54,912 bases of DNA from a virus, in IMG/VR virus record IMGVR_UViG_3300008108_004142, positions 1-54,912 of that record; one strand, given 5' to 3'. Below the pieces are notes generated by a model. The model saw only the letters and a program-made list of their open reading frames with translations, ran no database searches and was not told where the DNA came from. Numbering within the stretch: position 1 is the stretch's first letter; every line of letters begins with the position of its first letter. The position numbers and the translations under genes are program-made. Shown piece after piece: positions 14,388-54,912 of this stretch.

Positions 14388-14421
14388 AATACTATTTACA
14401 TTAAGGTTATAAAAATCATTT

Positions 14422-14429
14422 GATAAATA
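14422..14429 (+). promoter_or_regulatory. T4-like late promoter candidate (GATAAATA)
   Basis: GATAAATA 17 bases before the Fe-S carrier start at 14447. The same 8-mer lies before the genes at 8846 and 47299. It would also drive the giant tail gene that follows 4 bases after the carrier. Confidence 0.6.
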
Positions 14430-14446
14430 TCATATCGAGGGCAATC

Positions 14447-14770
14447 ATGATAACAATTTCAGACTCAGCAAAGACAAAAATTAAAGATTTACTCTATGAA
14501 GAGGGCAATCCTAACTTAGCACTACGTACATTTGTACAAGGCGGAGGCTGTAGCGGATTTAGCTATGGTTTTACGTTTGATGAAGTGATGAACGAAGATG
14601 ATTTTGAAATTCCTTTAGATGAATTTAAATTGCTTGTAGACAGCATGAGTATGCAATATCTACAAGGCGCAGAAATAGACTACAAAGAAGAAATTATGGG
14701 TAGTTCTTTTACAATCAAAAATCCTAACGCAACTACTACTTGCGGTTGCGGATCAAGTTTCGGAGTATAA
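14447..14770 (+). CDS. A-type iron-sulfur cluster carrier (ErpA/IscA/HesB family)
   Basis: A 107-aa A-type carrier that receives and hands on Fe-S clusters. The three ligand cysteines are present: Cys35 in [11 protein letters not shown] and the CGC pair Cys99/Cys101 ([10 protein letters not shown]). Length matches bacterial ErpA/IscA. The start is ATG 14447 after CGAGG; a longer frame from TTG 14420 would begin within the late box and is rejected. The giant tail gene begins 4 bases after the stop, so the two are probably co-transcribed late. Carriers of this type occur in some marine phages. Confidence 0.92.
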
Positions 14771-23700: not shown

Positions 23701-26700
23701 TACTAATGCAGGTACAGGATATACAACTCCTCCAATTATAAGCATTGGTACTTTCCCTGCGACCAACGGAGAAATTGCAAGAGCATTGGCAACATGTACC
23801 GTTAAAAACGGATCTATTGAAACTGTTACGTTGGTAAGTCCAGGTTACGGATATTCAAGTACTCCACTAATCACTTTAAGTGTTGGTAATGCTGTTCTTA
23901 CTGCTGTTCTAACATCTAGTCCAACAGTTAATACAACTGCTAGTGCAGGTATTAATACCAACAGAATTACAGTTGCATATCCAACTGATCCTGGAACATT
24001 TATATTAAATGATGTTGCATCAGTAACTGGTGCTATTGCTGACTCAGTTGGTGGAGTAAGTGCTGGTACTGTTCTCAATGTCACAGCAGTAAGCTCAGGA
24101 GTACTTAAAGTAGGTATGAGGCTGAGAGGCGATGGAATAAGTCCAAACACCTTTATTACTGCTTTTGATTCTGGTACTGGCGGAATAGGAACATATACAG
24201 TTAGTGTAAGTCAGTTACTTATTTCTTCAACAATTAATCTCGAAACAACTATAACTGGCTTTACCAGCAAAACTGGTCCTGCGGCATTTGAAGGAAGCAT
24301 TAGCGGAACTACACTAACTGTTTCATCTTTAACATCTGGAACAGTTGGTATTGGACAACGAGTCAAAGGTACAGGTGTTTCAAGCGGCACATACATTACC
24401 GCAGGATCGGGCTCAACTTGGACCGTAAGTGTAAGTCAAACAGTTGGAGCTGGCACTAGTCTTACAACAGACTTTGGAGTTACATTAGACATTAATACAG
24501 AAGCAGTTGCACCAACTGCTGGTGTTTGGTACGATATAGAGATGAGTAGTAATCCGTTGTACAACGGGTTGTATTATGCTGTTGTTACTACTACTAGCAG
24601 CATTACATTCAACTATTCGTATGATCCAGGCACTTGGAATTCACCTATTACTGTAAGTGCGTTTACTTCTAAAACAGGATCTGGACCATACTTAGTTACA
24701 CTTGAAATTCCTCTACAAGGCCAAGTGCCACAAATAGGAACACGTTGGGTAGTAGATGGTAATGGCACAGCCGATTACAATGGAACATTTGCTGTAACAG
24801 CTGCTACATCAACATCGATTACATTAAGTTACCCAAGTGATCCTGGCGCATATGGTGCGGGAACTACAACTTTAACTCCTGTAGTGAATGTCAGAAAACT
24901 GTCATTAAGTGCAACAAGCAGTCAACTAGGTTTAACAAAACCGTTTAGCTTAGGAACAGCCACAACCTTACGTGTAGGTTATCCAGCAGGTACACCTGCA
25001 CAAATTACTACACGTATTAGTACATGCCGTGCAACAGGGCATGACTTCTTAGATATTGGTACTGGCGGTTATTCAACAACTAACTATCCAGTTCAGATTT
25101 ATGGTAACCCTACACAAAGTAAACAACAGGCTAATGAAGTTTACGAAGAAGGTGTAGGTCGTGTATTCTACGTAACATCAGACCAAAACGGTATCTTCCG
25201 TGTAGGTCGATTCTTTACAGTTGACCAAGGCACTGGTACTGTTACATTCTCAGCGTCAATTGCGTTGAGTAACTTGGACGGTTTAGGATTTAAACGTGGT
25301 GTTGTTGTAAGTGAATTCTCAACAGATAGTTCAATGACTAACAACGCACCTGAAGTTGTTCCAGTACAAAGTGCTGTTCGTGGATACATTGATAAACGTC
25401 TAGGCCTGGATCACGGTGGCGGACCGGTTGCTTTAAGTAACTTAGTTGGTCCTGGATATATGGCCCTTAATGGTGCATTAACCATGAAGGGTAACATGAA
25501 CTTAGGTACATTTGCTATTACAAATTTAGCAACACCTATTAGTACAGATCCTGGAACAAATGCTGCTAATAAAACTTACGTTGATACCGCAATAGCCGAC
25601 TTCGATGAGTTTAATGAATTAAGAGATGTACAATGGACAAACTTACAAGAAGGTAATATTCCAGTATATGACCAAAGCACTTTAGTTTCTGTAGTTGGTG
25701 GTATTGGTAATGGAACAACTATTACACTTAACTTCTTAACACTAGCTAGTGCTCCGTTCCCAATTGGAAGTATTATTGTTGTAAGTGGTATCACTCCTGC
25801 AGGGTATAACGGAACATATATTGTAACTGGATGTACTACAAATAGTGTGAGTTATGCAAGCGTAGTAACCTTACCATATTCTAGTGGAGGAACTATTCTT
25901 GCTAATAAATGGCGTAATATTTTCCTACCAGACGACAGCGCAACTAGTGATGTATTGTTAACCTACAACGGTACAACAGGAAAAATAACTAGTACAATTC
26001 AAGCTCAAAAAATTGTCAACAGCATGGTTAGCCCAACTGCTGCAATCGCGCAGAGCAAATTGGCCATGAATGCTGCAACTTTAAGAGCAAATGCCACAAG
26101 CATTGCACAAGCAGATTTAGGTCTGGCATCGTTTAAATTAACCGAGTTTGATTCAACTAATGGTTGGATAGAATTAAAGAATGCAACTAGTTCTTCAACT
26201 GGTATTGTTTACAGCAAACTTCAATATGCTAGTCAAGGTACTGTCCTAGGCAGAGCCAAGACTGCTGGCACTGGCGCAATTGGTGAAATTGCGTTTGGAG
26301 ATATTATTTCTGGCGGTGACGGTATTAAAAATGCAAGTTTTGGTTCTGGAGCTACTCCACTAACTGGCTATGCTATGTTAGTCAGCTACGACGGATCAAC
26401 AACTAATAATAATACCTATAGTATAGTTAATGTAACAACTACTGGTCAAGCAAACAGTCTTGTTAAAACTGATGGAAGTAGTAATGTAAAAATTAACAGT
26501 GGACACGTAGATACTAGTGCAGGGTATTTTATTAGTACTAAGAAAATTATTGATGTTAATGGTTCTACAAATGCTGTACAATACTATACACCTGGCGGGC
26601 ATAATTACTCATCAACAATAGGTACTAGTGCGTTAAACACTACGACAACTATGACGGGTGTTTTAGATATCACTGGCGGAACATTAAAATCAGTATCCTT

Positions 26701-34860: not shown

Positions 34861-35367
34861 ATGCGATTAGACAAATACAGCAATCCAATCTTTAACGAAC
34901 AAGACATTTTTGAAGCCTTATACAAGGGCCAAACTTTGTCGCCTGAAATGTTTGTAGAATCAAATGACGAAATCAAAAATTTAGAAGCAACAGCAGAATT
35001 AAAGTTTTGGAAACCGTTAGATGACTACGATCTGTCGCTTGAAGATTACGACTCGTCGTTACAAACAGATTGGAACATGCCCGATGAGTATAAAACTCTG
35101 GATATTGAACAATGGGTTTGGGAGCAAACTCCTCCCTGGGATCCAAATCATACCAGAGTAGCAGAAGAATTAGAAGCGTACAAAGCAAGAAACATGCTAG
35201 ATTTGTTGCGCTGGCTCAAATATTTTGTAGATGTTTGCTCAAAAGAAAATATAGTTTGGGGTGTAGGGCGTGGAAGTAGTGTAGCCAGTTATGTACTTTA
35301 CATTATTGGGGTTCATAATATTGATTCGATCAAATATAATTTAGACTGGCAGGAATTCCTGAGATAA
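34861..35367 (+). CDS. stand-alone fragment related to bacterial DNA polymerase III alpha (DnaE)
   Basis: A 168-aa protein. The last 40 residues (from about 129) match the start of the DnaE/PolC palm: GVGRGSSVASYVLYIIGV (134-151) followed by IDSIKYNLDWQEFLR, equivalent to the GPGRGSxxGSLVxYxLGIT...DPLxxxLxFERFL block of DNA polymerase III alpha. The reading frame stops just before the position where DnaE carries its catalytic PDFDxDF aspartates, so it cannot polymerise. The N-terminal 110 residues are acidic and Trp-rich and not recognisable as DnaE. Similar short proteins occur in T4-like marine phages. It may bind DNA or nucleotide, or imitate part of host DnaE. Confidence 0.7.
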   Translation: MRLDKYSNPIFNEQDIFEALYKGQTLSPEMFVESNDEIKNLEATAELKFWKPLDDYDLSLEDYDSSLQTDWNMPDEYKTLDIEQWVWEQTPPWDPNHTRVAEELEAYKARNMLDLLRWLKYFVDVCSKENIVWGVGRGSSVASYVLYIIGVHNIDSIKYNLDWQEFLR

Positions 35368-35394: not shown

Positions 35395-35640
35395 ATGGCA
35401 ATGAAAGAACAACAAAGACAAGCATATCGCTCAATGCAAGGCAAAGAAGTAGATATGCAGAAACTAGTAATGGCTAACGAAATGACTGTAGCTGTTGGCA
35501 ACGTAAAAGTTAATGCTCGCGGCGACGAACTTGGCCCCGGTGGCAAAATTATCCGTAAACGAGAAGAAGTTATGCGTGAAGCACCAAATTCTACTGTTAA
35601 GAAAAATATTAAAGATATGGATCCAGAAGGTAACGAATGA
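35395..35640 (+). CDS. small basic phage protein, 81 aa
   Basis: Preceded by a good TAGGAG ribosome site. The product is basic with a helical first half (MKEQQRQAYRSMQGKEVDMQ), a Gly-rich turn (GDELGPGGKIIRKRE) and an acidic tail. It overlaps the co-chaperonin gene by 4 bases (ATGA), so the two are likely coupled. Small proteins with this GPGGKI turn are common in T4-like marine phages next to gene 31. Function unknown. Confidence 0.8.
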   Translation: MAMKEQQRQAYRSMQGKEVDMQKLVMANEMTVAVGNVKVNARGDELGPGGKIIRKREEVMREAPNSTVKKNIKDMDPEGNE

Positions 35641-36026
35641 AAGCCCAAGCTAGTAAAATAAGACCAATTCAAAAGCATATCTTGGTAAGAGATATGAATT
35701 TCGGTGAACAAAAAACCGCAGGCGGCATTGTGCTAATGAGCGATGATGGCAAATCTGAAGGTGTTAAACCCAGGTGGGCAAAAGTATTTGCAGTTGGCCC
35801 TAATCAAACTGATGTCAAAATTGGCGACTGGATACTAATAGAACACGGTCGTTGGACTCGAGGACTAGAAGTCGAAGAGGATGATGGCACTAAATTTACT
35901 ATCTGGCGAGTAGATCCTGAAGGTATTATGATGACTGCTGACGAAAGGCCTGCTGGAGCCGAGTTTGGTGTGTTTACTACAGCCTCACACGGTTCAGAAA
36001 TCCGTCCAGAAGACTTTATAAGATAA
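35637..36026 (+). CDS. GroES-like co-chaperonin (T4 gp31-like)
   Basis: A 129-aa GroES-fold protein that would cap host GroEL for folding of the major capsid protein. The N-terminal IRPIQKHILVRDM corresponds to the GroES first strands. Residues about 23-44 (EQKTAGGIVLMSDDGKSEG) form the mobile loop with the GGIVL docking tripeptide. It is followed by AKVFAVGPNQTDVKIGDWILIEHG, the conserved GroES barrel. A C-terminal extension of about 40 residues is present, as in T4 gp31. Ends before a terminator. Confidence 0.9.
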   Translation: MKAQASKIRPIQKHILVRDMNFGEQKTAGGIVLMSDDGKSEGVKPRWAKVFAVGPNQTDVKIGDWILIEHGRWTRGLEVEEDDGTKFTIWRVDPEGIMMTADERPAGAEFGVFTTASHGSEIRPEDFIR

Positions 36027-36100: not shown

Positions 36101-36334
36101 ATGAGTACATTTGACGAAGCAGTACAAGATATTAAAAAAGCAAAAAGCGTTTTAGAAGACCAACCAGTATCTGAAATAAAACATCCCGATCCAAAAAAAC
36201 ATTTATATATTAGTTTGGCTAAAAGCATTATTCGAATCGGTGCAGGCGGGTGTTTAATAGCAGGATTTCCAATCTGGTGCGGTGCTGGACTTATCGCTGC
36301 AGAGATACTAGGTATTTTTGAAGAACTAGTATGA
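36101..36334 (+). CDS. small membrane protein, 77 aa
   Basis: First gene after the sigma70 promoter. The N-terminal half is soluble and charged, with a helix (FDEAVQDIKKAKSVLEDQ). Residues about 44-73 form one long or two short hydrophobic segments rich in Gly and Ala (IRIGAGGCLIAGFPIWCGAGLIAAEILGIF), suggesting a hairpin in the inner membrane. The ending overlaps the next gene (ATGA). No family recognised. Confidence 0.75.
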   Translation: MSTFDEAVQDIKKAKSVLEDQPVSEIKHPDPKKHLYISLAKSIIRIGAGGCLIAGFPIWCGAGLIAAEILGIFEELV

Positions 36335-36765
36335 AAGTAGGATTTACTTGTAGCACATTTGATTTGTTTCATGCAGGGCATATTATGATGCTCAAAGAAG
36401 CAAAAACTCAGTGTGATTACCTAATTGTAGGACTGCAAACAGATCCAACAATAGACAGGCCAGAAACTAAAAACAAACCAATACAAAGTATTTTTGAAAG
36501 ATTTGTTCAACTACAGGCCTGTAAATTTGTAGACGAAGTTGTAGTGTATGCTACAGAAAAAGAGCTAATCGACATATTGCTTTCTTATCCAGTAGATGTT
36601 AGAATACTAGGAGAAGAATATGCAGGACAAGAATTCACTGGATGTGCTATTCCAATGGAGTTTTATTTTAATCAACGCAGACACAGTTTTTCAACATCGG
36701 AATTGCGTCAACGTGTTATAGAGGCAGAACATGAAAGAACTATGGGTAGAAAAATATCGTCCTAA
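36331..36765 (+). CDS. HxGH-type cytidylyltransferase-like protein
   Basis: A 144-aa nucleotidyltransferase of the TagD/RfaE-C type. It has the HxGH signature at residues 14-17 (FDLFHAGH), a DYLIVGLQTDP strand, and the FSTSELRQR segment near 124-132 that corresponds to the second signature (usually STTxxR) contacting the nucleotide phosphates. Such enzymes join CTP or ATP to a phosphorylated alcohol or sugar. The substrate is unknown. It overlaps the previous gene by 4 bases and the clamp loader gene by 35 bases. Confidence 0.85.
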   Translation: MKVGFTCSTFDLFHAGHIMMLKEAKTQCDYLIVGLQTDPTIDRPETKNKPIQSIFERFVQLQACKFVDEVVVYATEKELIDILLSYPVDVRILGEEYAGQEFTGCAIPMEFYFNQRRHSFSTSELRQRVIEAEHERTMGRKISS

Positions 36766-43024: not shown

Positions 43025-43879
43025 ATGATAGACTATTATAAAACATTAGGGGTTAACCCAACAGCTACTCCGGATGAAATTAAAAAAGCCTACAGAAGTC
43101 TAGCCAACAAACATCATCCCGACAAAGGAGGAGATCAAGCTAGATTTAAAGATATTTCTGTAGCATACGACACACTAAGTGACGGTCAAAAACGTTCAGA
43201 ATATGACCAAATGCGTATGGGCGGCGGGCCGCAAACTAGATTCCAATCTGGAGATTTTCAAGAATTTGCAGATATGTTTGGCGGAGCATTTGATCCTTTT
43301 GGTCATAGGTCTAATCCATTTTATGATGTATTTGGCCGCGGAAGAAGAAATAGAGATTTAAACATTCAATGCCAACTTAGTTTACTCGATTCTTTTTTAG
43401 GTAAACAATTAGAAGCAAACTTTAGGTTGCCTAGCGGCAAGCCACAAACTGTAGTTATTAATGTTCCAGCAGGAATAAATCACGGAGAAACTATACGATA
43501 CCAAGGGCTCGGTGACGATAGTATTCCTAACGTACCTAGAGGAAGTTTAAATGTTACTATAATTGTTTTGCCAGATCCTAATTTTAGAAGAGAAGGCAAC
43601 GATCTATATACTACAGTAAACATAACTCCAATTGAAGCGATGATTGGTTGTAGGCGGAGAATAACATACATCACCGGTGAAGAAAAAGAACTTGACATAA
43701 GACCAGGCGTTGAAACAGGCATTGAGTTTGCTAGCCACGGGTATGGGTTTACTGATCATAGGACTGGACAAAAAGGCAGATTTGTTATTGTAGTAAACAT
43801 CAGAACGCCACACATATCTGATCCTGAAATTATTCGTAAACTTCGAGAAATAAATGATGAAATTAGTCTTAGATCCTGA
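43025..43879 (+). CDS. DnaJ-family co-chaperone (CbpA-like)
   Basis: A 284-aa Hsp40. J-domain in residues 3-60 with the HPD tripeptide at 31-33 (HHPDKGG). A Gly/Phe-rich linker follows (about 75-105, MFGGAFDPFGHRSNPF), then two beta-barrel client-binding domains (INVPAGINHGETIRYQGLGDD...). The four CxxCxGxG zinc repeats of true DnaJ are absent, so it is of the CbpA type. It would stimulate host DnaK. The end overlaps the peptide deformylase gene by 26 bases. Confidence 0.92.
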   Translation: MIDYYKTLGVNPTATPDEIKKAYRSLANKHHPDKGGDQARFKDISVAYDTLSDGQKRSEYDQMRMGGGPQTRFQSGDFQEFADMFGGAFDPFGHRSNPFYDVFGRGRRNRDLNIQCQLSLLDSFLGKQLEANFRLPSGKPQTVVINVPAGINHGETIRYQGLGDDSIPNVPRGSLNVTIIVLPDPNFRREGNDLYTTVNITPIEAMIGCRRRITYITGEEKELDIRPGVETGIEFASHGYGFTDHRTGQKGRFVIVVNIRTPHISDPEIIRKLREINDEISLRS

Positions 43880-44345
43880 TCCAGTTTTAAAACAATTAGC
43901 CGTTGAATGGGATTTTTCAGTTGATAAAGATGCTGAAAATATTGAAAAAGAAATGATAGACCTAATGAAAACATTTCATGGTCGAGGTCTTGCAGGCAAT
44001 CAAGTTGGGTTATTAAAGCGTATGTTTGTAATTAAACTTGAAAGCACAGGCCAAACTTTAGGTATGTTCAACCCAAAAGTAGTTAATCTTTCTGAAACCG
44101 AACAGAGCGCAGAAGAAGGGTGTTTAAGTTTTCCAGCTCTCTGGTTAAAAGTTAAGCGTCCAAACAAAATAGATATCGAATACCTTGACAAGCACGGAAA
44201 AGAATGTAAAATGACATTAACTGGCATCGATGCTAGATGTTTTTTACATGAGCTTGATCATTTGAACGGAATTACATTTACAAGTAAAGTAAGCTCAGCA
44301 AGCCTTATGTTAGCCAAAAAGAACCAAAGGAAAAATAAATGGTAG
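43854..44345 (+). CDS. def: peptide deformylase
   Basis: A 163-aa enzyme that removes the formyl group from new N-termini. Motif 1 GRGLAGNQVG with Gln50, motif 2 EGCLSFP with metal ligand Cys90, motif 3 HELDH with His132, Glu133 and His136. All active-site residues are present. It is shorter at the C-terminus than most bacterial enzymes, as usual for phage copies. Two adjacent ATG codons (43854, 43857) can serve as start. It overlaps both neighbours, indicating coupled translation. Confidence 0.94.
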   Translation: MMKLVLDPDPVLKQLAVEWDFSVDKDAENIEKEMIDLMKTFHGRGLAGNQVGLLKRMFVIKLESTGQTLGMFNPKVVNLSETEQSAEEGCLSFPALWLKVKRPNKIDIEYLDKHGKECKMTLTGIDARCFLHELDHLNGITFTSKVSSASLMLAKKNQRKNKW

Positions 44346-46624
44346 AACCAAGTGATAACCTACAAGCAGTTTTTGAACGAGCTATTGAAACTGCTAAAAA
44401 ACTACACCACGAGTATTTGACAATTGAACATTTGTTATTTGCTATACTAATGGAGGAAGGGTTTAATAAAACTCTGCAAGGATACGGCACAAATGTAGAT
44501 GACTTTAGGAAAAATTTGATCAATTATCTACAAACAAAGTGTCAAGAAATCACTGTACCAGATGTAGTTGTAAAACCAAAGAAAACGCAAAGTGTTGAAA
44601 GAATTCTTAACCGATCCTTTACTCAAGTGCTGTTCAATGGAAGACAACGTATCGAGCCAGCAGATGTCTTTTTATCTATGATGAGTGAAAAACGCAGTTG
44701 GGCGTTTTATTTCATTCAGCAGGCTAACATTGATAAAGATAAATTTGCAGACTATCTAAACAGTTCTGTAGAAGAAACGGAAGAGGAAGAAGATCCAAGA
44801 GAGGGTATGGCTAATAAAGCTCTTAGTGCATTTACTACTAACCTCAATGAACAGGTAAAGAAAAATAAAATTGATCCTGTCATTGGTCGTATAGATGAAT
44901 TAGAAAACATTTCCCTAGCAATGGGTCGACGAAACAAAAATAATGTTATCTTAGTAGGCGATCCGGGTGTGGGTAAAACAGCTATTGCTGAAGGTTTGGC
45001 ATATAATATTGTCAAAGGAGCAGTTCCCGACTTCCTAAAAGATTATACTGTTTTTAATTTAGATATCAGCAGTATGCTTGCAGGTAGCAAGTATCGTGGA
45101 GATTTTGAAGAACGATTCAAAGCTGTACTAAAAGGTCTTAACAAAAAAGGAAAGACTATACTGTTTATTGACGAAGCGCACATGATTAGTGGAGCAGGAT
45201 CTGCAAGCAATGGTGCAAATGATCTTGCTAACATGATGAAGCCTGCTCTGAGTAAGGGTAATATTAAAGTAATTGCTTCGACTACTTGGGAAGAGTACCG
45301 CAAGCATTTTGAAAAGGATCGTGCGTTGATGCGCCGTTTCCAACGCATTACTGTTGACGAGCCTACTCAAGAAGTTACTTTACAGATCTTAAAAGGACTT
45401 AAAAAATATTACGAAACGTTCCATAACGTTAAGATCAAAGACGATGCGCTCCAAGCATCTATTAAACTTAGTGTAAAATATCAAGCTGATAAGAAACTAC
45501 CCGACAAAGCTATTGACTTAATCGACCTAGCTTGTAGTCGTTTCAATCTTAAACTTGCAGACGAACGAGTAGTAACTCAGCATGAAATTGAACACGAACT
45601 TTCAAAGGTTGTGCAGCTTCCTGAAGAAATAGTCAGTGAAACTGAAAGTCACAACCTTGCAACTTTACAAGATAAACTGCAAAGAGATGTTTACGGACAA
45701 GATCTTGCAGTACAAGAAGTTGTAGATAGAATCATTATTGCACAAGCTGGATTGAAAAACGAAAACAAACCCATTGGTAGTTTTGTGTTTATGGGTCCGA
45801 CTGGCTGTGGTAAGACAGAAACTGCAAAAAGTCTTGCTAAACACCTAGGAGTTAAACTGTTACGTTTTGATATGAGTGAATATCAAGAAAAGCATAGTAT
45901 TAGTAAGTTGATTGGTAGCCCTCCAGGTTACGTTGGCTTTGAAGAAAATGCAGGCCAACTTATTACTAGCATTCAGGAAAATCCAAATGCTGTATTGTTA
46001 TTCGATGAAGTTGAAAAATCACATCCAGATGTGTCGACTGTACTACTACAAATGATGGATAACGGTTTTATTACAGGATCAAATGGAAAACGTGCAGATT
46101 GCCGTCAATTAGTTTTAATTCTAACTACTAATGCTGGCGCACAAGAAGCCGATAAAAATGCTATTGGGTTTGGTAGTCAGCAAAAGGAATACAGCGATAA
46201 AGAACTTAATAAATTCTTCACACCAGAATTCCGTAATCGACTAGATGGTATTGTTACTTTTAACAAACTAGGTAAGGATACTATGATAAAAGTCGTTGGT
46301 AAATTTATCGACGAGCTTAAAGAACAGGTTAAGGAAAAAGGAATCCGTGTTAAAGCTGATAAATCCGCTATTGATTGGTTAATTGAAAAAGGGTTTGACA
46401 GCAAAATGGGTGCTCGTCCTTTACAACGTGTCATTGATAAAGAAATCAAACGTGATCTTTCTAAAATGATGTTGTTTGGTGAGCTGAAGAACGGAGGCTG
46501 GTTAACTATCAGTGCAGATGATTCAAAACTCGTACTAATAGCTAAACCAAAAACTCCTAAAGTTCCGTTGTTAACTATTGAAAATATAGATACAACAATT
46601 GAAGATGTTAACGAAAACAACTAA
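44339..46624 (+). CDS. clpA: ClpA-type AAA+ unfoldase
   Basis: A 761-aa double-ring Clp ATPase. N-domain with Clp-N repeats (residues 1-145), first AAA module with Walker A GDPGVGKT (207-214) and ILFIDEAH, no long middle coiled-coil of the ClpB type, second AAA module with GPTGCGKT (486-493) and LLFDEVEK. An IGF tripeptide at 609-611 (NAIGFGSQ) matches the ClpP-docking loop of ClpA/ClpX, so this protein should feed a ClpP ring, and a phage ClpP is encoded at 704-1324. The start overlaps the deformylase gene by 7 bases. It ends inside the next gene. Confidence 0.94.
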   Translation: MVEPSDNLQAVFERAIETAKKLHHEYLTIEHLLFAILMEEGFNKTLQGYGTNVDDFRKNLINYLQTKCQEITVPDVVVKPKKTQSVERILNRSFTQVLFNGRQRIEPADVFLSMMSEKRSWAFYFIQQANIDKDKFADYLNSSVEETEEEEDPREGMANKALSAFTTNLNEQVKKNKIDPVIGRIDELENISLAMGRRNKNNVILVGDPGVGKTAIAEGLAYNIVKGAVPDFLKDYTVFNLDISSMLAGSKYRGDFEERFKAVLKGLNKKGKTILFIDEAHMISGAGSASNGANDLANMMKPALSKGNIKVIASTTWEEYRKHFEKDRALMRRFQRITVDEPTQEVTLQILKGLKKYYETFHNVKIKDDALQASIKLSVKYQADKKLPDKAIDLIDLACSRFNLKLADERVVTQHEIEHELSKVVQLPEEIVSETESHNLATLQDKLQRDVYGQDLAVQEVVDRIIIAQAGLKNENKPIGSFVFMGPTGCGKTETAKSLAKHLGVKLLRFDMSEYQEKHSISKLIGSPPGYVGFEENAGQLITSIQENPNAVLLFDEVEKSHPDVSTVLLQMMDNGFITGSNGKRADCRQLVLILTTNAGAQEADKNAIGFGSQQKEYSDKELNKFFTPEFRNRLDGIVTFNKLGKDTMIKVVGKFIDELKEQVKEKGIRVKADKSAIDWLIEKGFDSKMGARPLQRVIDKEIKRDLSKMMLFGELKNGGWLTISADDSKLVLIAKPKTPKVPLLTIENIDTTIEDVNENN

Positions 46625-47298: not shown

Positions 47299-47670
47299 AT
47301 GCGAATTAGAGAACTACTTGAAGGTAAAAAATTTAACGATTTAGATTTTGTCACCAAGGACCAGGACGGTGAAAGCATCAACTATGACTTAATTGAAGAT
47401 CTTACATTCTTCATGAATAACGACGACGATGCTTATAGACGTCATTTATACCCTAGTCTAGCTAAATGTTTAGATCAACTAAAATCAAAGAAAAACACAA
47501 CACCGTCCTTTTTTGAATCAGCGGTTGAAAACAGCTACAACGATTATTGTAAAAAATATCCTATTCGCCAACTTCCGTCTAGCATAGAAAAAGAAATGTT
47601 TGAAGAAATTTGCAAAAAATTACATGACGATGTTTGCAAAGATTACGAAGACGGAAAGTACAAGGACTAA
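47299..47670 (+). CDS. hypothetical protein with capsid-targeting-like leader, 123 aa
   Basis: The N-terminus MRIRELLE-GK is a short amphipathic helix ending in LxE, the type cut by the T4 prohead protease. The rest is charged, helical and acidic (LIEDLTFFMNNDDDAYRRH, then SSIEKEMFEEICKKLHDD), with four cysteines but no clear zinc motif. Two bases separate it from the next gene, which shares the leader. Function unknown; packaging into the head is inference. Confidence 0.72.
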   Translation: MRIRELLEGKKFNDLDFVTKDQDGESINYDLIEDLTFFMNNDDDAYRRHLYPSLAKCLDQLKSKKNTTPSFFESAVENSYNDYCKKYPIRQLPSSIEKEMFEEICKKLHDDVCKDYEDGKYKD

Positions 47671-47672
47671 CT

Positions 47673-48824
47673 GTGTTACTTCGAGAATTATTTTATTTTG
47701 AAAATGCTCCGGCAAAAAAGAAGTTAGGCCGTGCATTTAATCACCTCGAAGATTTGGTATTCTTTTACGGAAGTGCAGGAACACTCGAAGCGTTAGATCA
47801 TTTAAAAGATTTAGCAACAGCTGAAGGTGCAAAAAGTGTTAGAATGAAATGGGACGGCAATCCTCAAATATATTGGGGAAGAGAAACAGCCGGCGGTCCG
47901 TTAATACTTGCGGGACACAACGGTTGGAGTAGAGGCGCAAAATATTCTAATAAAAAAGATATCTATAATTTTATTGCACATCAAAGTGGTAGACCTGGAA
48001 CACCAGAGCAACAAAAAGAAAGAGAAACATTTGCTAAACAGTTTGCAAATCTCTATCCGTTGTTTGATGCTGCAACTCCAAGAGACTTTGTTGGATTTGT
48101 TTACGCAGACGGATTATTCTTACAAAGGCCGCAAGTAGATCAAGCAGGCGTTTATACTTTTTGTCCAAACCCAAATAGCCAAACTTGTTATCATGTAAAA
48201 GCGGAAAGCGAACTAGGTCAAAGAATTAGTCGAGCACAAGTAATGGTTGTAGGACATGCTTATTTTGAAAGTTTTGGTATGGACGACAGCGAACAACAGC
48301 CCATGGACGATTTTAGTACGTTTAATCAGACTGTAGGTTTGATTGTACAAGGGCCTATCTATAATCAAGCAGAGATAAAAATAGAAACACAAGAGATAGA
48401 TCAAGTTGAAAATTATCTGCAAAAACATTCTTCACAGATAGACGGATTTTTACAAGGTGTTCCTGGTATGAGTGACCTTAAAGACATTTTGTATAAGTTT
48501 GTCAATCAGACTGCTAAAGCAAAAAACTTAGATAATATAGGAACAGATTTATTTTTCCAATGGTTAAGTAGTAGCGGTGTTAGCGGACCAAAACAACAAA
48601 AGATAAATCAACTAAGTCAACAATTTAACGGCGCATTAGAAGCAATTTTTACACTAGTAAGACAAATACAAGATATTAAAGATAATGTAATTGATCAAAT
48701 CGAAGCAGGACACTCAGCAGATGTGTGGGATACTAACGGCGAAGGCCGTGTAAGATACGCTGGACCTAATAAAAAGTTTGGTAATATTAAATTAGTACCT
48801 AGAAAACGTTGGACACCAAAATGA
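47673..48824 (+). CDS. KxDG-containing phage protein with capsid-targeting-like leader, 383 aa
   Basis: The GTG start at 47673 has AAGGA upstream and gives the leader MLLRELFYFE; the frame extends further upstream but only through the previous gene. A KWDG motif at residues 59-62 (SVRMKWDGNPQIYWGR) is followed by a strand and a Gly-rich turn (LILAGHNGWSRG). This resembles motif I (KxDG) of ATP-dependent ligases and capping enzymes, where the Lys takes the nucleotide. The later ligase motifs are not clear, so a nucleotidyltransferase function is only possible. The C-terminal half is helical. It overlaps the next gene by ATGA. Confidence 0.75.
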   Translation: MLLRELFYFENAPAKKKLGRAFNHLEDLVFFYGSAGTLEALDHLKDLATAEGAKSVRMKWDGNPQIYWGRETAGGPLILAGHNGWSRGAKYSNKKDIYNFIAHQSGRPGTPEQQKERETFAKQFANLYPLFDAATPRDFVGFVYADGLFLQRPQVDQAGVYTFCPNPNSQTCYHVKAESELGQRISRAQVMVVGHAYFESFGMDDSEQQPMDDFSTFNQTVGLIVQGPIYNQAEIKIETQEIDQVENYLQKHSSQIDGFLQGVPGMSDLKDILYKFVNQTAKAKNLDNIGTDLFFQWLSSSGVSGPKQQKINQLSQQFNGALEAIFTLVRQIQDIKDNVIDQIEAGHSADVWDTNGEGRVRYAGPNKKFGNIKLVPRKRWTPK

Positions 48825-49828
48825 GATTAAGAGAATTATTTGAAAACATATACGAGATAGCTGACGACACAAAACCGTTTGACGGTGGTTTAAAAACTAT
48901 CGGCATTTGCTACGGGCGTTGGAATCCTCCACATCAAGGGCACAGAGAAGTATGGAAAGAAGCGTCTAAAAATCCTGTTTGGTTTGTAGGCACTAATCAA
49001 GATACAGCTGGTCCTAAAGATCCGTTGCCATATGAAGTGAAATTACAATGCATGGCTGCTGTTTGGCCAAAAGTTGCTGGGCATGTTATTCCAGAACAAG
49101 ATTTATTTGTAATGGCTACTCATATATACGAACAGTATGGTGAAAACGTAAATTTAAATGTCTATACAGACGAAGAATGGTTAGTTAGTAGTTTACAAAA
49201 ATACAACGGTTTAATGAATCAAAAACACGGTGGCTATAAATTTACACAAATTGATTGGAAGAAAACAAAACGTCTAGCTCGTGCTACTGATTTACGTAAT
49301 TCGGTTAGAGATGGAGATGCTGCAAAATTTTATAAAGATGCAGGTGTACCATCTAACACTATGATAGCATTAGGAGAGAAGTCATATCCTATGTTTGAGA
49401 TTGTAGCACATTTCTTAAACAAATATCCTGATAAAAGTAAAAAAGCCGCAGTAGCAGAAGGTTCAGTTGGTAAGGGCGGAACAAAAACTATCGACAAAGA
49501 AAAGAAAGCTGCTATGAAAAATGCTCTTACAATGCCTGATTTAAATATGAGCACTGGCCGCGGCGGCGCATATATGAATTATCGAATGGCAATTGCTCTA
49601 GCAGGTGCTCCTAATTTCCCAACTAAGATGGAAGCAGACAACTGGATTGGCGGCGATCCTTTGCTTAGTTCTTATACTGAAGAAGAATTTGAAATGGTCA
49701 AAGCTGCAGCCAAACAAGTTGGTGCTGGCACTATACAAAACTGGTCAGGCAATCGTAGTCAAGAAATCGCAGACGTAAATAAGACTAGTCCAGTTGCCAA
49801 GCCTAAAAAGAACAAATACGGAGTTTAA
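48821..49828 (+). CDS. NMN adenylyltransferase-like nucleotidyltransferase with capsid-targeting-like leader
   Basis: ATG 48821 overlaps the previous stop and gives the leader MRLRELFE-N; a TTG four codons upstream is rejected. Residues 26-45 (IGICYGRWNPPHQGH...) match the GRFxPxHxGH signature of NadM-type and related nucleotidyltransferases (His38, His41). The ATDLRNSV segment (about 155) corresponds to the second ATP-binding motif. The last 120 residues are a Lys/Ala-rich linker plus a small helical domain (MNYRMAIALAGAPNFPTKMEADNW). It may make NAD or another dinucleotide; the substrate cannot be read. Confidence 0.8.
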   Translation: MRLRELFENIYEIADDTKPFDGGLKTIGICYGRWNPPHQGHREVWKEASKNPVWFVGTNQDTAGPKDPLPYEVKLQCMAAVWPKVAGHVIPEQDLFVMATHIYEQYGENVNLNVYTDEEWLVSSLQKYNGLMNQKHGGYKFTQIDWKKTKRLARATDLRNSVRDGDAAKFYKDAGVPSNTMIALGEKSYPMFEIVAHFLNKYPDKSKKAAVAEGSVGKGGTKTIDKEKKAAMKNALTMPDLNMSTGRGGAYMNYRMAIALAGAPNFPTKMEADNWIGGDPLLSSYTEEEFEMVKAAAKQVGAGTIQNWSGNRSQEIADVNKTSPVAKPKKNKYGV

Positions 49829-49830
49829 AA

Positions 49831-50271
49831 GTGGAAGACGAAAAATATTTTGCAGCATTAAAAACAGCATTTGCCAGTGAGTACGCTTTTGCATTAAAAG
49901 CACAAAACTTCCATTGGAACATTGAAGGTCCAAACTTTCCACAGTATCATGCTTTGTTTGAAAAGATCTATGATGAAGTGTACGGCATAATTGATGACTT
50001 TGCTGAAAATCTACGTAAAGTAGGAACATATACACCTGCTAGTTTTTCACGTTTTAATATGTTGACTATGATTGAAGATGAAACACAAATGCTAGACGAA
50101 CGTTCTATGCTAGCCGAATTGTACGCAGACAGTGAAAAAATGGCCAATATCTTTAAAGCTATTTTTCAACTAGCCGAGGAACGCGGAGAGCATGGGTTAA
50201 GCGATTTCTTTGCTGCAAGACAAGATGCACACAAAAAACATAGTTGGATGCTAAGAGCAACACTAAAATAA
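49831..50271 (+). CDS. Dps-like ferritin
   Basis: A 146-aa four-helix protein of the Dps (DNA protection during starvation) family. The ferroxidase ligands are all present: His28 (NFHWN), His40 (QYHALFE), Asp55 and Glu59 (IDDFAENLRKVG). GTG start 2 bases after the previous gene. The N-terminal DNA-binding tail of E. coli Dps is missing, so it would mainly take up iron with peroxide and limit hydroxyl radical formation. Unlike its neighbours it has no capsid-targeting leader. Confidence 0.88.
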   Translation: MEDEKYFAALKTAFASEYAFALKAQNFHWNIEGPNFPQYHALFEKIYDEVYGIIDDFAENLRKVGTYTPASFSRFNMLTMIEDETQMLDERSMLAELYADSEKMANIFKAIFQLAEERGEHGLSDFFAARQDAHKKHSWMLRATLK

Positions 50272-50272
50272 T

Positions 50273-50503
50273 ATGGATGAACTAGCTCAAATTAAAAAGT
50301 TAGCCGGCATTAAACCTTTCCCAGGTTTAACAGAGTATTCTATCGAAGACGGTAGTAATATTAGTTTGACTGGCAACGAAAAAGGCGAGCTAATGAAAAA
50401 ACATAACATCAAACCTGGAACACCTGAATGGTTTCAATTATGGTTTAGTTTACCTAAACTTACAGGAGAAAAACCTGTTGGTCCAGGAATAAGGAAAAAG
50501 TAA
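50273..50503 (+). CDS. conserved small phage protein, 76 aa
   Basis: Starts one base after the Dps stop and ends sharing a base with the next start (TAATG). The N-terminal DELAQIKKLAGIKPF and the C-terminal PGTPEWFQLWFSLPKLTGEKP are known to me from marine T4-like phages as a small conserved unknown. The Trp/Phe-rich end suggests a binding motif. No catalytic residues recognised. Confidence 0.75.
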   Translation: MDELAQIKKLAGIKPFPGLTEYSIEDGSNISLTGNEKGELMKKHNIKPGTPEWFQLWFSLPKLTGEKPVGPGIRKK

Positions 50504-51039
50504 TGAAAGTTATAGAAATTTTATCAGAAATGAGAGGACGTAGAGATGCGTATCAACGTGATTACGATTCTAGCGTAATCGGAATGGGTAAGCGAGATAG
50601 CTACGCATATCAACAAGATGGCGGTGCTAATGACGAAGGTTGGGATCGTGAAGAACCTGCTAAAGATGCGCCACACGATGTACATATCGATGGCCGCAAA
50701 TGGAAAACGTTTGGGTCACGCGGCCACGCTAGTAATGTTGCTCGTAAACTACAATCTAAAGGTAAAAAAGCTACAGTACATAGATCATTAGATGAAACAG
50801 CAACACCTGGAGCTACAAGTGCAGCTAATGTAGGTACAGTAGATGCACCACATATTAGCCCAGGAAAATCTCGTGGAAAAAAGAGTTACATTGGCAGTCC
50901 TTGGGGTGGTAAATCGGGTACAAAATCCCCTGCACAACCCAAAGTAAAACAACCTAAAAAATCAGATGGCACAGCAGTAAACGGCTTAGACATAAAAGGC
51001 TCAAGTTTATTTGGTGGGCCGACCATTAAAAGAAGCTAA
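50503..51039 (+). CDS. basic phage protein with capsid-targeting-like leader, 178 aa
   Basis: The leader MKVIEILSE-M ends in an LxE site. A short folded element around residues 59-93 (DVHIDGRKWKTFGSRGHA, then ARKLQSKGKKATVH) is a recurrent module in phage proteins. The remaining C-terminal 85 residues are low-complexity Gly/Ser/Lys/Pro and basic. Such a basic, disordered, packaged protein would be analogous to the T4 internal proteins that bind DNA in the head, but that is inference. Confidence 0.72.
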   Translation: MKVIEILSEMRGRRDAYQRDYDSSVIGMGKRDSYAYQQDGGANDEGWDREEPAKDAPHDVHIDGRKWKTFGSRGHASNVARKLQSKGKKATVHRSLDETATPGATSAANVGTVDAPHISPGKSRGKKSYIGSPWGGKSGTKSPAQPKVKQPKKSDGTAVNGLDIKGSSLFGGPTIKRS

Positions 51040-51042
51040 ATA
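51035..51042 (+). promoter_or_regulatory. weak late-promoter-like box (GCTAAATA)
   Basis: GCTAAATA overlapping the end of the previous gene, 21 bases before the start at 51064. Two changes from TATAAATA. The same 8-mer stands before the gene at 38941. Confidence 0.35.
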
Positions 51043-51063
51043 TACAATAACGGAGTTTATACC

Positions 51064-52776
51064 ATGCACGACGACATGCAACCAGATACATTAAATCCAG
51101 TACCAGCTGGAGCACAACAAGATCACGAAGGCGCTATGGCCCGTGCTGATCTTTACAAATTAGCCAACTATTCGCTTAAATTATTTAAGAAATTAGATGA
51201 TTCTGCTCAACTAGAAGGTTGGGTACAGGCTAAAATTACTAAAGCAGCTGACTATGTTGCCAGCGTTTATCACTATATGGAATATGAAATGAAATTCAAC
51301 GAATATGGTGAACACTTGGCCAATGCTGAAGTTATGAGCGAAGGACAAAAAGCTCAAATTATTAATAAGTTAACTGAAGCTCGTCAAAAGGTTGCAGCAC
51401 TAAAGAAAATTCAAGCAGACAAGATGTCTGGTAAAAAAGTTGATGAAGGTGTACTTAGCGGTGGTGAACGTCCGTGTGCAGAGTGTGGTGGGAGCGGAAT
51501 GGTTTATGAAGAACCAAAAGCAGTTCCAGATCATGTTAAAGGTAAAGTAGACAAGTATAAGCGCCTAACTAAAGCTATGCATGCCGCCAGCAAGCGTTTG
51601 GATAGAAACAACAACGGTATTCCTGATCATTTAGAGAACGATCAAGAAGTAGGAGAAGACCAAGGCGACCTTAAAAAAGTTGGTGATACAACTAAAACTT
51701 CTAAAGGTGGCACCGTAACTAAAACTTCAACTGGTATCAAGCACGAGCGTGATCCAAGCAGTTATGATGACGGCGGTGATGCTGACGAAAAATCTGGAAA
51801 AGGCACCAAGAGTCATGCTAAAGCACAGTCTGCAGCTGAAAAGAAAGAACGTGCTCCTGCACAAAAACAGTCTAAGACTGGTACATGGGGCATGAAGGAT
51901 GGTGCTAAGTTTGACAATCGTAAGAAAGAAAAAGCTGTTGACGAAACATTTGGTCAAGGCGTTTACGCAGAAGGAAAAGGCAAGAAGCCAGACTTCTTAG
52001 ACATGGATAAAGATGGCGACAAAAAAGAGCCAATGAAAAAAGCTGTCGCTGATAAAAAAGCAGGTCCAAAGAAAGGTGTAAATCCTTTTGCTAAAAAAAC
52101 TAATGAAGCATTAAAAGGCGGTCAACATAAACTAGATGTAGACGATGATGGCGATATCGAAGGCGACGATCTAGCAGACTTACGTGCTGGTAAGAAAAAG
52201 AAAGAAAAGAAAGTTGACGAGTCAGGTAAAAAGACTATGAGTCAGGCCGCAAAAGGAAACGAAAAATACGGCAAGGATGGCATGAAGGCACTAGCTAAAG
52301 CAGGTCGCAATGGCGCAAGTGAAAAGAAATTAGATGCTATTCGTGACAAGCACGACAACTATTCAGAGTCATGGAAGCTAAAAGCTAAAGCTCTTAAAGA
52401 AAACTTAGATGCAATGACACCAGATCAAGATATGGAACTCAGTCTTGACGAAGCAGGTCAGATAGATTTAACAGCATTGTTACAGCAAATACAGCAAACA
52501 GATCCAAAAGGATTAGAGCAAGCCATTGCAGCTGAACAAACTACTCCTGGATCAATTGCAAAATTTATGGATTCTAAAATGAAAGGTGGCGCAAAACCTG
52601 GACAATCACCTACACCAGATGCAAGTGCAACACCAGCAAATCCTACACCTAATCCAACAATGGGTCAAGCACCAACAGCACAACAAGATACTGCTATGGA
52701 TGATCCAGCTAATCAAATCAACGAATCTTCTGAATTAGATCGCATGAAACAATTCTTAACAAGATTAAACGGATAA
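51064..52776 (+). CDS. multidomain charged virion/scaffold-like protein, 570 aa
   Basis: GGAG (51052-51055) precedes the start. N-terminal helical domain (residues about 20-125). A single CAECGGSG zinc-knuckle-like motif near 139 resembles one DnaJ CxxCxGxG repeat. Two calcium-binding-loop-like stretches: DRNNNGIPD near 180 and DVDDDGDIEGDD near 360. Very Lys/Asp/Glu/Gly-rich linkers contain recurrent pieces such as MDKDGDKKEPMKKA and GNEKYGKDGMKALAKAGR, known to me from T4-like marine phages. Several (I/L/V)xE-type sites. It is probably a prohead core or internal head protein; direct proof is lacking. Confidence 0.75.
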   Translation: MHDDMQPDTLNPVPAGAQQDHEGAMARADLYKLANYSLKLFKKLDDSAQLEGWVQAKITKAADYVASVYHYMEYEMKFNEYGEHLANAEVMSEGQKAQIINKLTEARQKVAALKKIQADKMSGKKVDEGVLSGGERPCAECGGSGMVYEEPKAVPDHVKGKVDKYKRLTKAMHAASKRLDRNNNGIPDHLENDQEVGEDQGDLKKVGDTTKTSKGGTVTKTSTGIKHERDPSSYDDGGDADEKSGKGTKSHAKAQSAAEKKERAPAQKQSKTGTWGMKDGAKFDNRKKEKAVDETFGQGVYAEGKGKKPDFLDMDKDGDKKEPMKKAVADKKAGPKKGVNPFAKKTNEALKGGQHKLDVDDDGDIEGDDLADLRAGKKKKEKKVDESGKKTMSQAAKGNEKYGKDGMKALAKAGRNGASEKKLDAIRDKHDNYSESWKLKAKALKENLDAMTPDQDMELSLDEAGQIDLTALLQQIQQTDPKGLEQAIAAEQTTPGSIAKFMDSKMKGGAKPGQSPTPDASATPANPTPNPTMGQAPTAQQDTAMDDPANQINESSELDRMKQFLTRLNG

Positions 52777-52780
52777 AAGC

Positions 52781-53098
52781 ATGGACACAGGTTTAAAATC
52801 AGATATAACTAAGTTTTTATCTATTATAGATAAAAATGATGTTTCTATTCTGAAAGAAGAACAGGATAATAATCGTGTGCTTAATGAGGGTGCAAACCCT
52901 CATAAAGTATCGTTGCCTGTTCAAATGGCCATGCAACATTATCAAAAAGATGCTGTTAAAAAAGATTCGGTGTTAAAAAAATATTTTAAAGAAGCAGAAG
53001 AATCTGCTTTACAAATAACAGCTGAAAGAAAAAAAATGTTGTCTCAATATGCACAAAAAATTTCTAATAAAATTTTAGAAAGATCTAGAGGTATTTAA
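52781..53098 (+). CDS. conserved phage protein, 105 aa
   Basis: Four bases after the previous stop. Two parts: a less conserved start (MDTGLKSDITKFLSIIDKND), then a block with HKVSLPVQMAMQHYQKD followed by a long charged helix (LKKYFKEAEESALQITAERKKMLSQYAQKI). The second part resembles a conserved unknown protein of T4-like cyanophages located near head genes. Coiled-coil character suggests a structural or scaffold role. Confidence 0.75.
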   Translation: MDTGLKSDITKFLSIIDKNDVSILKEEQDNNRVLNEGANPHKVSLPVQMAMQHYQKDAVKKDSVLKKYFKEAEESALQITAERKKMLSQYAQKISNKILERSRGI

Positions 53099-53131
53099 AC
53101 AACAAATTATAATTTGAATCAGGAAAATAAA

Positions 53132-54912
53132 ATGGATTTAAGATCACTTATTGATAAACTAGACACTATTGAACAGGAAAAACTATTGCTCGAATCTGAA
53201 GAGCTAATGGAAAGAGTTGGTCTTAGATTGTCAGACATTGAACAAGCTGTTGGAAGGGAACTTGATGGCAATAAACGTGCCGCAATAATTGGTGACTTTG
53301 CTCGCAAGTTTGGATATGCAGGTTTGTTTGATCCTGTTTCAGGCAAGTTTGTTAATAAAGATGGAAAATTTGCTAGTTTTGGTGCTTATCAAAGTGAAGT
53401 TGAACAATTAGAAGACGAAGGATTAATTCCTAATAGTGCAAAAACAGATGCACTACTTGGCTTCATGGGTAAAGACGAAAAAGCAGCCAAACCAAAAGCA
53501 TTTGCAAGAGCCGATTTAATGGGGGCAATTGACAAGGCAGACGGTTTACTCGACAAAGCTCTCGACGGTATGCTAGAAAGCAAAGGTATCGCTAACTCGT
53601 TATTAGAAGAGTTTGGCATTGATACACGCATATTAGAAGCCATTACGCCTGAAGAGCATCAATTCCTTAAAAAGACAGTTAAAGATGCTGAGCCAATTAA
53701 ACATAAAGCCGATGCTAATAATCTTATAACAAGATATAATCAAGTATACGTGCCTGCACGAAATAGACTTATTGCAAAGATCAAAGAAGTCATTGCCACA
53801 ATTAAGCCTGCAGCAAAAGCAGTTCCAGCGGCACCTGCAGCTAAAGACCAGCGTTCTGGGGCTGCTACTACAAAAGAATCTTTAACATTTGAAAATAAAG
53901 ATATTTTACTTGAAATCGAACTAACACCCAAAGGAAAACAAGCTAGAGCTAAAATTTATCAAGCAAGCTGGACGGGATATTTAAGTCCACAACAAAGTCA
54001 ACATAATCTTAACATGATTAAGAAAGGGTATGCTAGATATACTGTCGGGGATCATGTAGGACAGAACGTAAGAGATATTTTTAATGCACCTACAATGGGC
54101 GCAATGGATAAATTTCAAGCATGGGCAAGTAGTCGTAACGATCCTAACACATCGTATGAAAAAGAATTAGCAAAATTGCAAGGGCAAACTACAGCATACA
54201 ACAAAAGTAATCAAGCTGGAAATCTTCGTAATGCAGTAAAAGCTGTAACAGGTTACCAGATGGATAAAGACAATCCGTTTGGTAATATTACTCCTGGGGA
54301 TCTTATTGGTACGTTTGCAGGCGGAATGGGTTTATGGAACGCAGGTGTTAAAGTTGCTACAAAGTTAGGCGTACCAGGTGTAGTTGGTGGTCTTACAACT
54401 ACACTTGCAGCACCGTTGGCAGTAGCACAAGTTGGCAATGGTCGACAACCTAACAATCAACAACCTAACGATCAACAACCTAACAACGGTTGGCAACCTG
54501 GCGATAATAATCAACAATCTGGCAATGGTATGCTACTTGCTGGAAATCAATTTGCAATAATGAAAATGCAAAGAGACCTAAAAGCAGCAGGTGCAAATTT
54601 AGGTACGTATGGTCCTAACAAAGACGGTGTTGATGGTAAGATTGGTAAGTTTACTAGAGATGCAATGGCAAAATATCCAGAGATTGCCAAAAAACATGGA
54701 TTCGGTGGCGGTGTAGCAACACAGCCAGACAATCAATCCGACGACGGCTCCTATGATAGAGCAGAGGCAAGAAGATTATCTAACTATCCCGCCGACAATA
54801 CAGATACATATCAAACTGATATCAATACACGAGTTAGTCCAGAACAAGTACAAACTATGATGGCCGAACTTGGGATAACTGGAACTGAAATTACACCTGA
54901 TCAACTACTAGC
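53132..54912 (+). CDS. large internal/virion protein with peptidoglycan-binding-like domain (3' end outside window)
   Basis: The frame is open from ATG 53132 to the right edge (593 complete codons). The N-terminus MDLRSLIDKLDTIEQEKLLLESEE is helical with LxE-type sites. A FGYAGLFDPVSGKFV segment lies near 61-75, an Ala/Pro/Lys-rich linker near 222-240, and a Gly/Ala-rich hydrophobic stretch near 390-430. Then comes a QQPN repeat linker and a segment near 475-520 (MKMQRDLKAAGANLG...GVDGKIGKFTRDAM) with the spacing of peptidoglycan-binding PG_binding_1 domains. A packaged protein that acts on or at the cell wall during DNA entry is possible. The reverse-strand frames here are only shadows. Confidence 0.8.
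   Translation, partial: MDLRSLIDKLDTIEQEKLLLESEELMERVGLRLSDIEQAVGRELDGNKRAAIIGDFARKFGYAGLFDPVSGKFVNKDGKFASFGAYQSEVEQLEDEGLIPNSAKTDALLGFMGKDEKAAKPKAFARADLMGAIDKADGLLDKALDGMLESKGIANSLLEEFGIDTRILEAITPEEHQFLKKTVKDAEPIKHKADANNLITRYNQVYVPARNRLIAKIKEVIATIKPAAKAVPAAPAAKDQRSGAATTKESLTFENKDILLEIELTPKGKQARAKIYQASWTGYLSPQQSQHNLNMIKKGYARYTVGDHVGQNVRDIFNAPTMGAMDKFQAWASSRNDPNTSYEKELAKLQGQTTAYNKSNQAGNLRNAVKAVTGYQMDKDNPFGNITPGDLIGTFAGGMGLWNAGVKVATKLGVPGVVGGLTTTLAAPLAVAQVGNGRQPNNQQPNDQQPNNGWQPGDNNQQSGNGMLLAGNQFAIMKMQRDLKAAGANLGTYGPNKDGVDGKIGKFTRDAMAKYPEIAKKHGFGGGVATQPDNQSDDGSYDRAEARRLSNYPADNTDTYQTDINTRVSPEQVQTMMAELGITGTEITPDQLL
54446..54490 (+). repeat. three 15-base tandem repeats coding for QPNxQ
   Basis: Units at 54446, 54461 and 54476 of the form CAACCTAAC(A/G)AT-CAA, the last one diverged, inside the linker of the final gene. 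A looser copy follows (CAACCTGGCGAT). It marks a flexible linker prone to length change. Confidence 0.85.

Follow-up and report, generated by a model that had tools for sequence, protein, structure and literature searches.

A predicted island of capsid-targeted internal proteins with a ligase-like and NadM-like enzyme pair in a T4-like phage

The window analyzed here is the complete IMG/VR record IMGVR_UViG_3300008108_004142, a linear viral genome fragment of 54,912 bases with 38% GC. We propose that its last segment, positions 47299-54912, is part of an island of 'internal protein' genes of a T4-like (Kyanoviridae-related) phage, and this explanation as a whole, comprising leader targeting, cleavage, ejection and an enzyme pair, is likely the best one. 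A short N-terminal leader helix would serve as a capsid-targeting propeptide that docks each protein on the scaffolding core during prohead formation, a gp21-type prohead protease would cut behind (L/I/V/F/Y)xE, and the protein so matured would stay packaged in the head alongside the DNA until its ejection at infection. Two of the cargo proteins, a DUF6267 enzyme and a NadM/NMNAT-like enzyme, may act in one pathway, most likely AMP/NMP transfer, that would repair or modify a nucleotide, a nucleic acid or a host target at the onset of infection. Docking, cleavage, ejection and substrate are steps that we infer; that the cluster proteins are T4-type capsid-targeted cargo is highly likely, and their ejection, argued by analogy with T4, is probable.

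Four genes of the cluster, which like all features of the island lies on the plus strand, begin with nearly the same leader of 8-10 residues, just as the original prediction had described. They encode a 123-residue protein to which no function is assigned (47299..47670, ATG start, leader MRIRELLE↓G at 47299-47322, where the arrow marks the predicted cut), the DUF6267 protein, a ligase/capping-type covalent nucleotidyltransferase by its motifs (47673..48824, leader MLLRELFYFE↓N at 47673-47702; PF19782, 54 bits), the NadM/NMNAT-like nucleotidylyltransferase with an additional C-terminal module (48821..49828, leader MRLRELFE↓N at 48821-48844; phrog_3041, 2.7e-13), and a 178-residue protein (50503..51039, ATG start, leader MKVIEILSE↓M at 50503-50529). 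The GTG start codon of 47673 lies directly past the stop of the preceding gene, and the ATG of 48821 overlaps the stop of 47673 as ATGA. The fifth, looser start noted earlier was likewise found, in a large protein with an ATG start that is cut by the window end (53132..54912; prosegment MDLRSLIDKLDTIEQEKLLLE↓S at 53132-53194; weak virion-protein match, phrog_24527, 0.0015). In this protein and in a 105-residue protein (52781..53098), whose variable prosegment runs to LNE↓G (52781-52888) and is followed by a conserved NPHKVSLPVQMAMQHYQ, the prosegment is longer and closes with a similar site. The strict (L/I)xE form is present in 47299 (LLE), 48821 (LFE) and 50503 (LSE). Start positions and leaders are kept by the homologues at over 100 further viral loci; the 47299 leader is retained in most relatives, often with the first 8 residues identical. 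Similar leaders head otherwise unrelated proteins of one phage, as with the T4 internal proteins (IPs) and Alt.

The site is conserved and the leaders are clustered. In 91% of 44 non-redundant DUF6267 proteins, [LIVMFY]xE↓[AGSNTD] occurs within the first 22 residues, against only 0-9% in every other 22-residue window of the same proteins, and the site is kept across at least five unlike forms of the leader (MLLRELFxxE, MRAREFLRE, MRLLELKELLE, MRLRQLFKE and MRFFEFREIIKE). Counted in 2-kb bins, the two bins that flank the start of the 47673 homologue have a strict leader pattern in 49-59% of their genes; by distance from the DUF6267 gene the share is 14% at +2-4 kb, 4% at +4-6 kb and 18% at +6-8 kb, and it is 0-2% beyond 2 kb upstream. 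Within the window, a similar pattern begins 4 of 59 called open reading frames, every one inside the cluster. Both patterns were drawn up with the leaders already known, and the controls were scored with the same patterns: minus-strand genes gave 0/133, head-module loci 0/336 and genes elsewhere in three relatives' genomes 3/285. Short motifs are easily found in a fragment of this base composition, and starts of highly expressed AT-rich genes could favor similar N-terminal peptides through chance or a bias of translation initiation; the last two control counts, together with synonymous codon changes in leaders whose residues are kept (pN/pS, the ratio of nonsynonymous to synonymous changes, 0.18-0.26, biased low since the pattern fixes residues), make such an origin extremely improbable. 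Two more leader-like starts, MKMKSFKEYLIES and MKLYEVLLEDKK, lie beyond the island in the relatives G001 (5548, L126) and G002 (71612, L138).

T4-type genes are present in the window fragment and head genes are absent from it, and a search for gp21 within the window gave no match. The gp21 homologue that the original prediction expected in related phages was found, as Peptidase_S77, together with gp23 in the near-complete relatives G001, G002 and G005. The gp21 frame of G001 (L128, 5201-5835) is broken by one TAA and is intact in the other two. Of 79 major capsid N-termini taken from relatives, all except five that are cut by contig ends show a T4-like (L/I)xE junction of the form KYL[MQLSI]E↓S[PA][TS][AT]G[AST]TSAGN, with the variant NIME↓SASAGATQAGN in G005. 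Short relatives of the 50503 protein run from the leader straight into this capsid-type junction (MKITEIITE↓TATAGSTSAGN, also written MKITEIITE↓TATAGSTSAGNI), and the 50503 protein itself has a second site, LDE↓TATPGATSAANV (E98, codon 50794-50796), similar to the major capsid junction. The propeptides in the T4 record (IPIII MKTYQEFIAE↓A, Alt MELITELFDE and gp24 MAKINELLRE↓S) match the leaders in style. A small gene flanked by the portal gene and a gp67-like gene begins MILRELFYID. This start is almost that of 47673 and has D at position 10; with an aspartate there, a T4 leader still targets but is no longer cut (PMC9026906). The scaffold protein gp22 begins MLDALKxLFENNV, which resembles MRLRELFENI of 48821, and in a BLOSUM comparison of all N-termini of the window with gp22 and a 79-residue core protein, the likeness was clear for 47673 only (score 36). 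From these resemblances we suggest that the leaders may copy the phage's own scaffold.

The position of the island bears on whether the leader could be a docking tag for some other destination, such as a replication complex, a membrane or a partner enzyme, with the glutamate site incidental. In relatives the island adjoins a DNA polymerase gene, and in cyanophages it is set among replication genes, outside the head module. The late-promoter sequence TATAAATA is absent from the cluster; it occurs less often in the window than chance would give, and the search is uninformative on timing. T4 IP genes are likewise found outside the head module, however, and the junction held in common with the major capsid protein, the likeness to the T4 gp24 and IP propeptides and the detection of a relative in virions, described below, make another destination improbable.

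Virion evidence comes from cyanophage S-SM1, whose T4-GC190 protein, a distant homologue of 48821, begins MKKFSAFLNE↓A; the leader pattern is present in 80 of 80 related cyanophage loci. Sullivan et al. 2010 (PMC3037559) found T4-GC190 when they analyzed purified S-SM1 virions by mass spectrometry. The same paper reports no detection in S-PM2 virions, and the S-PM2 protein lacks a leader; this contrast fits the capsid-targeting model weakly, because gp21 and further structural proteins escaped detection there as well. Leader-type starts in cultured relatives include MKKFSAFLNE, MKKFSEIIE and MLTLINFSKYITE. In cyanophages S-SM1, Syn9, P-HM1 and S-PM2 the genes for the two enzymes are flanked by gp41/mazG and gp61, in Methylophilales phage Melnitz by the helicase and primase genes. 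All 16 cyanophages compared share the cytidylyltransferase as a core gene with no assigned role (PMC3037559). Site conservation, clustering, the capsid-type junction and the S-SM1 detection together support the capsid loading that had been suggested from the leaders. The same suggestion had called the system previously undescribed, and here the cargo is indeed largely new, whereas the presence of a cytidylyltransferase-like protein in virions was published in 2010 (PMC3037559). Such a system is not described in the titles and abstracts of the few papers on capsid targeting together with cyanophages that our search covered, subscription journals lying outside it.

Several observations weigh against this reading. 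The site of 47673 is YFE and not the strict T4 (L/I)xE, its relatives showing LRE, LKE or LQE; the score of the 48821 leader against the scaffold is 18, no better than that of an unrelated gene, and the likeness is short. In the same gene run, Dps (49831) and 51064 have no leader. Because the window lacks head genes, gp21 was checked in relatives only. The virion detection covers the distant S-SM1 homologue only, and the S-SM1 and window enzymes are linked via Melnitz, at 31% to the window enzyme and about 35-46% to the cyanophage cytidylyltransferases. None of 71 cyanophage DUF6267 proteins has a leader, nor do the P-HM1 nucleotidyltransferase and the S-PM2 fusion. The original prediction held that relatives losing the leader while keeping the rest would refute it: these cyanophage proteins do so, which goes against the prediction in part. 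Leader-based packaging is therefore lineage-dependent, as the cyanophage DUF6267 proteins and the P-HM1 enzyme lack the leader.

The KxDG protein picked out earlier as ligase- or capping-like proved to carry the corresponding motifs. K59-W-D61-G62 (motif I, KxDG), E357-G358 and K373 are invariant in 44 sequences of the 47673 family, and we read the latter two, from sequence, as probable motifs IV and V. The structural model of 47673 has a predicted local distance difference test (pLDDT) score of 90, with leader residues 2-16 under 50. Its structural neighbors, among those listed (VIA rows), are nearly all RNA, tRNA or DNA ligases and capping enzymes, at Z scores of at most 7.1; a Foldseek search with the model gave a best E value of only 0.37, and querying PDB sequences with the DUF6267 profile returned nothing useful. 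No paper on DUF6267 was found in a literature search with subscription journals outside its coverage.

The second enzyme, 48821, has the NMNAT/NadM-type fold and the GRWNPPHQGH motif that had led to its description as NMN-adenylyltransferase-like. Residues ~24-203 align with NMNAT/NadM at a Z score of 12.7 (root mean square deviation 2.7, 147 residues aligned), and the motif departs from the GxFxPxHxGH type by W for F, most relatives having F. Confidence of the model is low in the leader and in the C-terminal module. This module of ~120 residues is a separate gene in G002 (136065-136448), with its own leader MRAKEFIIEQ. PPATs match 48821 nearly as well (Z score 11.8), so that NMN/NaMN is a candidate substrate, and NCBIfam matches are well under the cut-off. 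A second cytidylyltransferase of the CTP_transf_like type, with no leader, is encoded at 36331-36765 of the window.

The two enzymes do belong together, as the original prediction had supposed: they are neighbors in all relatives looked at and are fused in S-PM2, where the end of DUF6267 continues in one frame into the cytidylyltransferase. In the old S-PM2 record (L323, 3026-4805), DUF6267 is split by a frame change, so that the fusion is annotated as two genes. Given this fusion, a profile (phrog_455) that covers both domains, and matches of the DUF6267 model, in a fold search, to phage proteins of 591-915 residues under the name cytidyltransferase, the pair probably shares one pathway. An internal leader in the fusion, expected from phrog_455, was rejected: at 80 cyanophage loci the two proteins come from separate genes, and in S-PM2 no leader stands between the fused domains.

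One reading of that pathway is that 48821 makes NAD+ as an NMNAT, countering NAD+-depleting defense from the onset of infection. Its best structural matches are NMNAT/NadM, and phages that rebuild NAD+ are known, such as NARP1 (PMC12774641). The nearly equal PPAT scores tell against it, as does the result of a search for a nicotinamide/nicotinate phosphoribosyltransferase (NadV type; PF04095), which gave 0 of 11 records comprising the window and ten relatives, some of them fragments; NMN would be left to the host, and the ligase-like partner would be unexplained. A role of the pair in NAD metabolism, and NAD+ synthesis by 48821 in particular, is thus rather doubtful.

The leaders might instead send proteins to the prohead core for assembly, after which they would be degraded or retained and not delivered as active enzymes. 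T4 core proteins are cut to pieces by gp21 (PMC9026906), and the 50503, 52781 and 50273 proteins are small, with extra sites or long prosegments. The 76-residue 50273 protein (50273..50503) has a possible LTE↓Y site after residue 21, upstream of a conserved NIS[VLI]TG core, and among the variants listed for its family 24 of 25 have L[HTKQV]E ahead of the core. Like it, 52781 (LNE↓G) and 53132 (LLE↓S) combine a variable N-terminal segment, a kept site and a conserved core; relatives of 52781 show [VIL]xE↓[GSA] between variable upstream and conserved downstream parts, and close relatives of 53132 retain L[TLQDFA]E↓[SAMN]. Against a purely core-bound fate, 47673 and 48821 keep their catalytic residues, and the S-SM1 homologue of 48821 is present in mature virions (PMC3037559). 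[LIVMFY]xE↓[AGSNTD] is almost missing from the mature part of DUF6267, so that the enzyme should survive maturation. We regard such a fate as unlikely for the cluster, and favor capsid-targeted cargo that is delivered.

In relatives, leaders also head a match to phrog_15752 (protein kinase, host transcription inhibitor; E value 1e-5), a putative amidoligase, HAD-like proteins and several families without known function. An HNH/endonuclease VII-like neighbor begins MRINEL and has no clear cut site, and a candidate nucleotidyltransferase-like protein (G002 145131, G005 94504) was so named by its look and has no convincing profile match. It is possible, though we offer it tentatively, that this widespread T4-like clade carries a modular, head-borne arsenal of pre-made enzymes, the ligase-like/NadM-like pair with kinase-like, amidoligase-like and HAD-like proteins in relatives, in which new cargo has been joined to a scaffold- or capsid-like leader and junction, and that the pair counters nucleotide-based immunity or repairs damage before phage expression.

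The two leaderless genes of the run encode a Dps-like ferritin-fold protein (49831..50271; PF00210, 2.6e-21) and a 570-residue low-complexity protein with DxDxDG-like stretches (51064..52776; phrog_24078, 6.4e-6). Searches of Pfam, PHROGs and NCBIfam gave no function for 47299, 50503 or 51064 and no significant family match for 47299, and PADLOC returned no match to defense families. Elsewhere in the window, a single open reading frame of 4165 residues (14774-27271) takes up more than one-fifth of the fragment and has no Pfam match at an E value of 0.001. A proteostasis set consists of ClpP (704-1324), a ClpA/B-type AAA+ ATPase (44339-46624), a DnaJ-like protein (43025-43879) and a GroES-like protein (35637-36026). 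Further genes encode a Bax inhibitor-1 family membrane protein (4406-5077; PF01027, 2e-54), a QueD-like 6-pyruvoyl tetrahydropterin synthase family protein (10403-10927), an Fe-S_biosyn iron-sulfur assembly protein (14420-14770) and a 168-residue match to the DNA polymerase III alpha NTPase domain (34861-35367; PF07733); relatives have a B-family polymerase beside the island.

If the proposed island is real, an unannotated block in abundant T4-like phages becomes readable from sequence as head-delivered proteins, by the signature of leader and capsid junction. It would supply a candidate list of proteins for earliest infection, including an enzyme pair common to cyanophages, and would account for the occurrence of the cytidylyltransferase in virions.

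The closest known counterparts are T4 IPI-III and Alt. Their N-terminal leaders are likewise short and finish at a gp21-type site, similar leaders precede diverse cargo of unrelated kinds, and the genes lie outside the head module; Alt is, moreover, an enzyme. The island differs in its cargo (DUF6267, NadM-like and, in relatives, kinase-like, amidoligase-like and HAD-like proteins), in the clustering of many leader genes, and in leaders of the LRELFxxE type as against MKTYQEFIAE of T4; cleavage and ejection are, for the island, predicted steps. T4 gp24 (MAKINELLRE↓S) is very near to the island leaders MKINELLTE↓A of G002 and MRIRELLE↓G of the window, but it is the vertex shell protein and no cargo. 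In S-SM1, T4-GC190 with T4-GC71 shares with the window the gene pair and its order, the CTP_transf_like domain, the T4-IP-like leader and, for T4-GC190, presence in the virion (PMC3037559); there the DUF6267 partner has no leader and the C-terminal region of the cytidylyltransferase differs, and the available sections of that paper list T4-GC190 among structural proteins and give neither a leader nor an injection model for it. Melnitz genes 15-18 also place DUF6267 and a cytidylyltransferase-like protein side by side, with leader-like starts ending ITE↓D and IIE↓A, although they are annotated as hypothetical and their neighboring cargo differs. Finally, polyvalent or injected conflict proteins (PMC5512222) resemble the island in being head-packaged enzymes thought to act at entry; they are large multidomain polypeptides, whereas the modules of the island are mostly separate genes, each with a leader of its own.

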